Assembly (NCBI GenBank): GCA_003154775.1
Contig: PMES01000035.1
Span: forward strand, 1 to 64,000
Source: Acidobacteriota bacterium
GTDB taxonomy: Bacteria > Acidobacteriota > Terriglobia > Acidiferrales > UBA7541
Length of the DNA: 64,000 nucleotides
Reading direction: 5' to 3'
The position numbers were made by a program, and so were the translations under genes. Below are positions 58,143 through 61,513 of this stretch, piece after piece (the stretch's first letter is position 1; the number at the start of each line of letters is the position of its first letter). The notes beneath the pieces are model-generated. The model did not search any database. It saw only the letters and a list, made by a program, of their open reading frames with translations, and was not told where the DNA came from.

Positions 58143-59897
58143 GTGGGAACGCCAATGGAAACCTGGGTTGACCAAGCCGCCCGGTTGACCAAGCCGGATA
58201 AAGTTGTTTTTTGCGACGGCTCCGAAGCGGAAAACAACGTCATCCTGCACGAAATGTTGAAGCATGCGGATTCCTTCCGGCTTAACGAAAAAACCTATCC
58301 CAATTGCTACCTGCACCGCAGCAGCCCCAGCGACGTGGCCCGCACGGAGCACCTCACGTTCATCTGCACTCCCGACAAGGACGATGTGGGCCCGACGAAT
58401 AACTGGATGGATCCCGGCGCGGCCAAAATCAAGGTAGGAGCGCTGCTGGACGGGGCCATGCGCGGGCGCACCATGTATGTCGTGCCCTACATCATGGGTC
58501 CCGCGAATTCGCCGATCAGCAAGGTGGGCTTGGAAGTGACGGACAGCCCCTACGTTGTGGCCAACATGCGCATCATGGCGCGCATCGGAAAAGTGGCCAC
58601 CGACCGCTTGGGAAATTCGGCGGATTTTGTGCCTGGCCTGCACTCGCTGGGCGATCTGGACCCGCTGCGCCGCTACATCGTGCATTTTCCCGAAGAGCGG
58701 CTCATCTGGAGCGTCGGTTCGGGCTATGGCGGAAACGCGCTGCTGGGCAAAAAGTGTTTTGCGCTGCGCATCGCCAGCTACATGGCGCGGCAACAGGGCT
58801 GGATGGCCGAGCACATGCTCATCCTCGGACTCGAATCGCCCGGCGGAAAAGTCACCTACATGGCCGCGGCGTTTCCCAGCGCTTGCGGAAAGACGAACCT
58901 GGCGATGATGGTCTCCGCGCTGGAGAGCCAGGGCTACAAGGTATGGACAGTCGGCGACGACATCGCGTGGATGCGGATTGCGTCGGACGGCTATCTGCAC
59001 GCCATCAATCCGGAAGCGGGATTCTTCGGCGTGGCCCCGGGCACGGGGATGAATACGAATCCCAACGTGATGCGGGCGCTGAACCGCAACACCATATTCA
59101 CCAATGTAGGCGTGACATCGGAAGACGAGCCGTGGTGGGAAGGCATCGGCGGCGGTCCGCCGGAAGGGCTGGTGACGTGGCGCGGCGAGAAGTGGGACCT
59201 CTCGAAGGGACCCGCGGCCCATCCCAACGCGCGCTATACCGTGCCCGCGCAGCAATCTCCCTGCATTTCGCCCAACTGGGAGGCGCCGGAGGGCGTGCCT
59301 ATCTCGGCGATTATTTTTGGCGGGCGGCGGGGTCGCCTGGCTCCGCTGGTATATGAATCTTTCGACTGGCAGCATGGCGTCTTCGTTGGCGCCACGATGG
59401 CCTCGGAAACAACCGCGGCCACCACGGGCGATGTGGGCATCATGCGGCGCGATCCCATGGCGATGCTGCCTTTCTGCGGCTACGACATGGCCGATTATTT
59501 CCGCCACTGGCTGGAAATGGGGAAACGCATCCCCAAGCCGCCCAAGATTTTCCACGTGAACTGGTTCCGCAGGGGCGCCAACGGCAAATTCCTCTGGCCC
59601 GGGTATGGGGAAAATGTGCGCGTGCTGAAGTGGATTCTGGAGCGCGTCGAGGGACGCGGAGAGGCGCGCGAAACAGAGATTGGCTATGTCCCGAAAAAAT
59701 CCGCTCTGACGCTGGACGGATTGCACATCGCGCGGGAAGCATTGAATGAACTCTTCCGCGTCGATGCCGATGATTGGGAGATCGACCTGGCCGACAGCCG
59801 CGAATTCTTCGCCAAATTCGGCCCCCGCCTGCCCGCGGAACTCCGCGAAGAACACCAGAAGCTTGCCCGCCGCCTCGAAAGATCCATCCCCGCCTGA
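58143..59897 (+). CDS. pckG: phosphoenolpyruvate carboxykinase (GTP)
   Basis: YVVPYIMGPANSPISKVGLEVTDSPYVVANMRIMARIG; FPSACGKTNLAMM; VGDDIAWMRIASDGYLHAINPEAGFFGVAPGT; NPNVMRAL. Confidence 0.98.
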   Translation: MGTPMETWVDQAARLTKPDKVVFCDGSEAENNVILHEMLKHADSFRLNEKTYPNCYLHRSSPSDVARTEHLTFICTPDKDDVGPTNNWMDPGAAKIKVGALLDGAMRGRTMYVVPYIMGPANSPISKVGLEVTDSPYVVANMRIMARIGKVATDRLGNSADFVPGLHSLGDLDPLRRYIVHFPEERLIWSVGSGYGGNALLGKKCFALRIASYMARQQGWMAEHMLILGLESPGGKVTYMAAAFPSACGKTNLAMMVSALESQGYKVWTVGDDIAWMRIASDGYLHAINPEAGFFGVAPGTGMNTNPNVMRALNRNTIFTNVGVTSEDEPWWEGIGGGPPEGLVTWRGEKWDLSKGPAAHPNARYTVPAQQSPCISPNWEAPEGVPISAIIFGGRRGRLAPLVYESFDWQHGVFVGATMASETTAATTGDVGIMRRDPMAMLPFCGYDMADYFRHWLEMGKRIPKPPKIFHVNWFRRGANGKFLWPGYGENVRVLKWILERVEGRGEARETEIGYVPKKSALTLDGLHIAREALNELFRVDADDWEIDLADSREFFAKFGPRLPAELREEHQKLARRLERSIPA

Positions 59898-59914
59898 GCG
59901 CCGGCCCCAATCCC

Positions 59915-60080
59915 GGGAACGCCATTCTCCTGAATGGCGCTTTTAAACACAGTGTCTCAACTGGATGCGCATCGATTCGAAAATGGACCTTCCTGGCGAG
60001 TATTGTGTTTCGAATCATGCGCAATTACTTATGGCGCTTTTAGTGATCTTTGAACCGCCAATCGGGAGATTGGCGTTCCC
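59915..60080. repeat. composite palindromic element bounded by GGGAACGCCATTC/GATTGGCGTTCCC
   Basis: Left hairpin CGCCATTC-TCCT-GAATGGCG, right hairpin CGCCAATC-GGGA-GATTGGCG, internal IR TGCGCATcGATTCGAAA (59966-59982)/TTTCGAATCATGCGCA (60008-60023). Confidence 0.75.
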
Positions 60081-60393
60081 GGCGGAAAACCATGAACGAA
60101 GCGGAAACCAGAGCCGAACTCATTGCCGCCGCGCTGGCAGCGGCGCCTCCCTGCTCGTTCTGTAGTGGCCGGTCTTCCGCGGTGTGTGCGTCCCGGTTCC
60201 TCACCGGGAAGACCGGTTCTTGGGGTTTTCTTGCCTTTCCCCGCCGTCATTCCGCCTGCCCGCCGCAGGAGGGAGCAACGCGAGGGATCTCTCTTCCCTC
60301 TTGGGGACCGGCGCGCTCCCTGTCTCGATTCGGGAAGGAACTGTTGGCGGCGGAGTAACCCCCCTCCCCCCGCCAGTTTTCGTGAACAATAAC

Positions 60394-60503
60394 AAAACAA
60401 AGGGTTTGCAGGCGCCACAGTGCGCAACAATGTGAAAACAGGGGACTTAAAAACTCACTGTTTTGATTTAGAAAGCCTTTGTTTTGATATGGATGCGCAC
60501 TGT
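60394..60503 (-). other. IR-dense non-coding segment with pseudoknot-compatible arms (candidate sRNA or regulatory array)
   Basis: AAAACAAAGG 60394-60403/CCTTTGTTTT 60476-60485; ACAGTGCGCA 60417-60426/TGCGCACTGT 60494-60503; AAAACAG 60435-60441/CTGTTTT 60458-60464. Confidence 0.5.
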
Positions 60504-60572
60504 TGGTGCAGAGAGTGAGTGTGCTTGGAATCTGCGGAGCGCGGGCGGGCTTGTGCCGAGTATTCACGATGC

Positions 60573-60607
60573 ATCCTACCACACTATTTACCAATTGTCA
60601 ATAGACA
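60573..60607 (-). promoter_or_regulatory. candidate sigma70-type promoter, minus strand, with palindrome over the -35
   Basis: Minus strand TTGACA (60601-60596), 17-nt spacer, TAGGAT (60578-60573); TGTC-TATT-GACA overlaps the -35 (60596-60607). Confidence 0.55.
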
Positions 60608-60862
60608 TTTTGAGGTACTAGCGTCGAATCTGGTACGAGGATCCGTGGAAGGAAGAGAGCAGAGCGAAGAGCGGACCTACCCTTTGCCAACCCTGCAAAG
60701 GGTAGGCCACCCGAGATTGCCTCTGCGGCTTAAGGCTGTGCCACCCTTCGCTCTTATTGCGCGGCGCCGAAATTCCGGAGACCAACCCGCGTCTTTGTCA
60801 CTCGCCAGGCTCCTGTCCTTGCCCGTTTTGCCTTTGCTGGGGAATGGCGTTAGTATCGGGGC

Positions 60863-61087
60863 ATGCCGGTGGATTGGAAACAATTTGTTGTGAGCGACCC
60901 GGAAATTCTTCGGGGCAAGCCGCGCCTGAAGGGAACCCGGATTCCCGTCAGCGTGGTGCTGGGTTATCTGGCCGCTGGCAGGACCTTTGAAGAAATTACG
61001 GCTGAGTTTCCCGATCTGACACGCGAGCAAATCGCCGCTTCCCTGGACTATGCCCGCGAACTGGCCGAATTCGAGGCCGTCGTCTGA
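60863..61087 (+). CDS. DUF433 domain protein (antitoxin-like)
   Basis: VVSDPEILRGKPRLKGTRIPVSVVLGYLAAGRTFEEITAEFPDLTREQIAASLDYARELAEFE. Confidence 0.93.
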   Translation: MPVDWKQFVVSDPEILRGKPRLKGTRIPVSVVLGYLAAGRTFEEITAEFPDLTREQIAASLDYARELAEFEAVV

Positions 61088-61267
61088 TGGCCGGTGGCCG
61101 ACAGATTAACGATTGAGCGATTTTGGGTGGCGCACCTCCGGCGCTGGAGGTTCTTTTCTTGCGGGGTCCCCGCGCTTACGCACGGGGCTAACTTGTGGCG
61201 CTCCTCCGGTGCTGGAAAGATGCCCTCTACAGACAGCGGAAGCGTTGTTCTTCCTTCTGCAAACCAA

Positions 61268-61513
61268 CTACAGCATGGACTGGATGCCGGAATCGAGGGA
61301 GAGGTGGGTGACGCTGGCGCCGCTGATGACGTAGGCCTTGCCCTCGATGTTGGAGAAATGCAGGAAGCGGCTGAGGTGGTAATCCTCGTCGAGGACGTTG
61401 AAGAGCGCCTGGATTTCCGTGGGGCTGAGCTGAAAGGCGGAGAGAGCAACGGGCTGGCCGAACTTACCCGCGACGGCGAGGTAGCGATCCACAACTTCGC
61501 GAAGGCTCAGCAT
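61268..61513 (-). CDS. small hypothetical protein, 81 aa, divergent from peroxiredoxin
   Basis: MLSLREVVDRYLAVAGKFGQPVALSAFQLSPTEIQALFNVLDEDYHLSRFLHFSNIEGKAYVISGASVTHLSLDSGIQSML, coherent amphipathic composition. Confidence 0.65.
   Translation of the reverse strand: MLSLREVVDRYLAVAGKFGQPVALSAFQLSPTEIQALFNVLDEDYHLSRFLHFSNIEGKAYVISGASVTHLSLDSGIQSML

Follow-up and report, generated by a model that had tools for sequence, protein, structure and literature searches.

Defence-island hotspots carry variable defence cassettes between conserved neighbour genes, and how bacteria gain, lose and shuffle their defence systems is an open question, for which integrases, tRNAs and prophages are the usual markers. 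The pdif sites are short XerCD sites of about 28 bp. In Acinetobacter plasmids these small dif/pdif sites, often arranged as inverted pairs, bound swappable modules that include toxin-antitoxin genes (PMC13141974, PMC6449649). At the Neisseria pilE G4, a cis-acting non-coding transcript at a G-rich element is needed for the adjacent DNA to recombine (PMC3547852), and the REP/REPIN sequences associated with RAYT transposases are dispersed non-coding repeats, often located downstream of genes (PMC2817692, PMC3116915). The TAACTGA repeats of Beggiatoaceae differ in unit and in position from the element described here (PMC4679880). Literature searches for such an acidobacterial repeat returned nothing relevant, and no matching Rfam family was found.

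The window analysed here is a stretch of 64,000 nucleotides from an Acidobacteriota contig. Its segment at 60394-60607, in which an earlier note saw a promoter driving a pseudoknot-capable non-coding stretch, perhaps a small RNA, belongs to a family of dispersed, ORF-less, promoter-bearing repeats and is not a unique pseudoknot RNA gene. When 59895-60860 was searched against the genome of origin (G000), about 16 places matched at 72-88% identity across much of 60282-60746; in total this genome holds about 17 core copies as well as a second subfamily (about 30 heads together), and the sister species, presumed to be Ca. Acidiferrum typicum UBA7541 (G050), holds about 20 copies. The shared core in the alignment spans about 60373-60641, and a profile built from 15 copies matches 60641-60373 on the minus strand with 300 bits. 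The dispersed nature of the segment was missed by the earlier note because other genomes were needed to see it.

The element is ordered as a head, consisting of a 22-bp palindrome and a conserved promoter, a variable body, and a tail of two direct repeats of about 38 bp followed by a G5NG5 tract; the second subfamily has head and tail in common with the core subfamily, with an unrelated body in between. In the window copy the head lies at 60641 and the tail at 60373. The head palindrome (60614-60636, minus strand; GTACCAGATTCGACGCTAGTACC) is degenerate here relative to the family consensus GTACCAGTTTCGAAACTAGTACC, and lies upstream of a smaller palindrome over the −35 hexamer. Matches to the head consensus GTACCAGTTTCGAAACTAGTAC number about 30 in the genome of origin and about 20 in the sister species, with one further instance, in a single genome, among the 399 genomes of the class that were searched. 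Across the loci scanned the promoter block follows nearly every head palindrome, the exceptions seen being truncated elements. A perfect 12-bp hairpin at 60676-60706 of the window (CCTACCCTTTGC/GCAAAGGGTAGG) belongs to another dispersed repeat, which often adjoins the element head.

The minus-strand promoter comprises a −35 hexamer TTGACA (60596-60601), a 17-nucleotide spacer and a −10 hexamer TAGGAT (60573-60578) that is preceded by TG, giving an extended −10. It is the sole match to TTGACAN15-19TANNAT in the 64 kb window, for which 0.14 matches are expected. The promoter is conserved in the family: across 15 aligned copies TTGACA is identical in all 15 and four of the six −10 positions (TA..AT) are invariant, such that 10 of the 12 hexamer positions are unchanged compared with 32% of other positions (P about 4e-4). 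The palindrome TGTC-TATT-GACA over the −35 hexamer is indeed present (60596-60607), but its left arm is kept in only 4 of the 15 copies; an operator TGTCTATTGACA, which the family copies do not keep, was rejected.

Downstream of the promoter lies the body (60450-60566, minus strand), the predicted 5′ part of the transcript, which is kept in the core subfamily and replaced by another body in the second, and which contains an inverted copy of a short motif at 60475-60503 (TTTGTTTTGATAT..TGCGCACTGT in plus-strand letters). Two tail direct repeats are evident in the alignment, at 60410-60449 (TAAGTCCCCTGTTTTCACATTGTTGCGCA..., minus strand), in a layout that recurs in relatives and the second subfamily, and at 60376-60409 (GCAAACCCTTTGTTTTGTTATTGTTCACGAAAAC, minus strand), matching the second-subfamily layout. 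In the family these repeats of about 38 nt start with TAAGTCC or TAACCCC and are followed on the promoter strand by a G-run, usually G5NG5; in the window copy this is GGGGGGAGGGGGG (60359-60371, minus strand), and a G-run, usually G5AG5, is present in all core tails listed. An outer extension, TTCGGGAAGGAACTGTTGGCG...GAGTAAC (60323-60358), is found in most of the 15 core copies and is missing from at least three. Three second-subfamily loci (L118, L124 and L127) have a perfect palindrome, TGTCGGCGCGCCGACA, within about 200 bp after the G-tract. The tail repeat motif varies among element variants and agrees within one copy; the earlier suggestion of an array of protein-binding sites fits the tail better. 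A strict tail pattern occurs in 12 of the 399 genomes and in six of the 136 genera of the class. Elements in another family of the class, which we take to be Acidobacteriaceae, have two or three direct repeats per tail in most cases, and are linked to those described here by tail motif and layout, not by full-length homology.

The segment is non-coding and richer in AT than its surroundings, as had been noted (GC 0.485-0.52 versus about 0.60). No convincing ORF follows the promoter; a minus-strand coding gene, for which a GTG lies beside the expected start, was rejected since substitution rates are flat over the three codon positions (0.178, 0.156 and 0.151), and the synonymous share of the GTG frame is no higher than that of other frames. 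With respect to RNA structure, two crossing perfect 10-bp inverted-repeat pairs do lie in 60394-60607 where they had been described (0.03 expected; at least two in 6 of 2000 dinucleotide shuffles), a third claimed pair of that length is not clear, and longer imperfect inverted repeats are also present (37 nt at 73%, 19 nt at 89%). The proposed pseudoknot was not borne out: neither crossing helix has a compensatory change in 15 copies, no pair being changed on both sides, and the first helix is often broken (paired in 81% of cells). The arms all consist of a single short motif, in direct and inverted copies, and so represent alternative matches and not two dedicated helices. A nested hairpin, likewise without compensatory changes in the family copies, was rejected. 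The RNAalifold covariation term gave no support for a fold, and the window copy folds with z = −1.5, 14 of 200 shuffles folding as well or better. No Rfam 15 family exceeded its gathering score on the element or its relatives; the few sub-threshold matches, to microRNA families, were taken as chance.

Head-side genes are often defence genes (restriction-modification, toxin-antitoxin and other systems), and tail-side genes are housekeeping genes. Among the matches listed in a PADLOC scan (threshold 1e-8), 204 families were matched on the head side versus 8 on the tail side of core copies (50 and 56 proteins), 128 versus 3 for the second subfamily (49 and 38 proteins, the head set including the cargo of two sister-species units), and 63 versus 2 around the tail elements of other genomes (32 and 31 proteins); these counts are of families, not of proteins or loci, and, because one methyltransferase matches many families, they show direction and not gene number. 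Pfam assignments on the head side include an Eco57I-type methylase with a PLD-like protein, XhoI with its methylase, type III Res/Mod, a type ISP enzyme, GmrSD_N with FRG, HigB, and PIN genes. Of the 16 core copies whose head-side DNA extends for 1 kb or more, 8 have a defence gene within 4 kb on that side, compared with 0 of 18 tail sides (P 7e-4; a hand count, in which tail sides were judged by PADLOC and protein reading, not all by Pfam). Genes were called with a home-made caller, and the genomes of G000 and its sister are drafts.

Where elements neighbour one another within about 7 kb, nine of 12 pairs are head-to-head, three run in the same direction and none is tail-to-tail (P 4e-4 against random orientation; pairs were counted by hand, and three of the nine, L106, L161 and L168, rest on a weak or partial partner). 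Head-to-head pairs enclose one defence system each. The cargo of the six units examined comprises a type III system, an Eco57I-type system, a PHP/ATPase (presumably resembling TrlF), a three-gene set with a Rad50-like ATPase (which we take to resemble ABC-3C), a Beta_protein-HTH/M78 set and a PIN_8/PIN_12 pair; PADLOC also reported parts of PD-Lambda-2 in the second-subfamily head set, which we infer belong to the Beta_protein unit. Many copies, including that in the window, have no partner element within 10 kb. At L151, in a genome of the other family, a pair of tails some 4 kb apart point toward each other, hence the head-to-head rule is established only for G000 and its sister. Except for RAYT remnants, the ORFs of these six units include no transposase or recombinase, nor did the element ends reveal a clean target-site duplication, only a TA occurring at the outer ends of several units; a TGT...ACA terminus with clean target duplication was not borne out. 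RAYT-like fragments, recognised by eye, abut element heads at L077:9471-9761 and L063:10035-10553; RAYT was rejected as the mover, being present as remnants only, beside two copies.

Comparison of G000 with its sister at five orthologous loci, where the elements themselves are 81-91% identical, reveals that tail-side synteny is kept in all five; head-side identity is at random level (0.50-0.61) in four, one of these replaced flanks being measured over 277 bp only, and is kept in one (L099/L075). At L097/L073 the step in identity sits at the G-tract, where identity rises from about 0.83 to at least 0.90, and the tail flank is 0.90-0.96 identical. In the sister locus L096, the tail flank of one G000 copy (L068) is joined to the head flank of another (L069), the junction that recombination between copies would give. 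Two genomes, G194 and G141, termed isolate-type for their long contigs, have in common a locus in the order MFS gene, tail element, lepA, and carry different cassettes within it: ParA-like and HTH genes in G194, and an NgoMIV restriction-modification pair in G141. Homology between them ends about 200 bp inside of the G-tract and resumes at lepA. Beside the swapped cassette, G141 carries a 148-bp duplication of the lepA 3′ end (L153:9156-9303 and 9613 onward), such as integration at the end of a gene could produce. A Vsr-like frame, read by eye, lies beside the NgoMIV pair. Breakpoints vary, being at the G-tract at one locus and near the head at another, and certain rearrangements span long distances, as expected of simple recombination between repeats.

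The window copy lies between PEPCK and an AhpC-like gene. On its head side is a DUF433 gene (60863-61087, plus strand; Pfam DUF433, 4e-23), likely the remnant of a DUF433-DUF5615 toxin-antitoxin cassette. The same place in the sister species, where a contig break falls, has DUF433 and DUF5615, and neither gene lies between PEPCK and the AhpC-like gene in two more distant relatives. The window copy thus fits the pattern, with a cassette that has decayed to a DUF433 antitoxin-like gene. No partner element was found in the following 19 kb. Intergenic DNA here is a patchwork built from several repeat families. Positions 61126-61323 match sequence that in the sister (L104) immediately precedes the DUF433-DUF5615 pair, which means that repeats and genes are arranged differently there; an Acido-Lenti-1 RNA (RF01687, 40.3 bits) is matched at 61168-61213, and short REP-like palindromes (GGAACGCCATTCTCCTGAATGGCG and relatives), with many copies in the genome and genus, lie at 59912-59946 and 60056-60085.

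A fixed orientation at the edge of species-variable defence cassettes looks like a border at which immune genes are swapped. We consider it probable, judging from sequence comparison, that the family consists of transcribed, ORF-less border elements between stable chromosome on the tail side and exchangeable defence cassettes on the head side. The data display a multi-copy family, constraint on the promoter, an orientation bias, head-to-head pairs and one-sided replacement, the last also at lepA in G194 and G141; counting against the border reading are the unpaired copies, the lack of a tied transposase or recombinase and of a clean target-site duplication, the variable breakpoints, the long-range rearrangements and the head flank kept at L099/L075. 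A passive origin, in which copies and defence genes both gather in gene-poor, rearranging regions without a causal link, would suit the mosaic character of these intergenic regions, but it is already disfavoured, and we regard it as improbable, as it explains neither why, in three data sets, placement is one-sided and depends on orientation, nor why the promoter is conserved. The two subfamilies could instead represent opposite ends of a non-autonomous transposon that is mobilised in trans, with the defence system as cargo, the tail direct repeats as transposase sites and TA-C5NC5-TGTTTTTG as the terminus. Core and second-subfamily ends do enclose cargo head-to-head, TA-C-tract-TGTTTTTG stands at the outer ends of several units, and tail motifs co-vary within an element, as they should if the sites co-evolve with one protein; nonetheless this account, at perhaps one chance in a handful or slightly better, seems unlikely to us, given that most copies are unpaired, the six paired units carry no transposase ORF other than RAYT remnants, no target duplication beyond TA was seen, and conserved sequence continues beyond the presumed terminus in most core copies.

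A dispersed family of small-RNA genes, with an RNA function of its own in regulation or defence and with defence neighbours reflecting merely where copies can settle, would account for the strongly conserved promoter, with its palindrome and 17-nt spacing, and for the conserved tail motifs. The lack of covariation, a fold equalled by so many of the shuffles, the unrelated bodies of the two subfamilies and the lack of an Rfam match leave this somewhat less probable again than the transposon. The single-locus pseudoknotted RNA of the earlier note is refuted as a unique locus by the multiple copies and finds no compensatory change in either helix, and we give it almost no credence; its strong promoter, its crossing inverted repeats and the non-coding nature of the segment are real.

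If the elements are borders, the copies would supply common homology, or recombinase sites, where cassettes get swapped, and the promoter might be retained because transcription toward the G-rich tail aids recombination there or yields a functional RNA. Two routes are compatible with the data: recombination between dispersed copies, perhaps aided by transcription into a G-rich non-template strand as at Neisseria pilE, which we would put at somewhat below even chances, and recognition of the ends by a trans-acting recombinase, which we consider less likely. That the border is transcription-dependent, the promoter firing into the G-rich tail and so starting exchange of the adjoining immune cassette, is a still more tentative proposal. 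A short, oriented DNA marking one cassette edge would let new defence genes be found beside it, and such a border sequence opens the mechanism of exchange to experiment in cultured acidobacteria. If the reading is true, there would be dozens of addressable defence swap sites per genome, in several genera of the class.

Of the known systems, pdif resembles the element in providing sequence-defined sites, often in inverted pairs, that bound swappable modules. However, pdif has no promoter, whereas the element is about 270 bp, chromosomal, and combines a promoter with direct repeats and a G-tract; by eye, the 22-bp head palindrome bears no resemblance to dif. The likeness to pilE, namely a promoter pointing toward a G-rich tract, is one of sequence layout, and pilE is one locus serving pilin gene conversion, whereas the element here occurs at many loci beside defence genes. 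As with REP/REPIN, these are dispersed non-coding repeats, and RAYT fragments adjoin two copies; membership of that class was rejected, because a REP is a palindrome of 20-40 bp and the element, at about 270 bp, is promoter-bearing and associated with defence genes. Unlike defence-island hotspots, a repeated, oriented border sequence here marks many sites in one genome.
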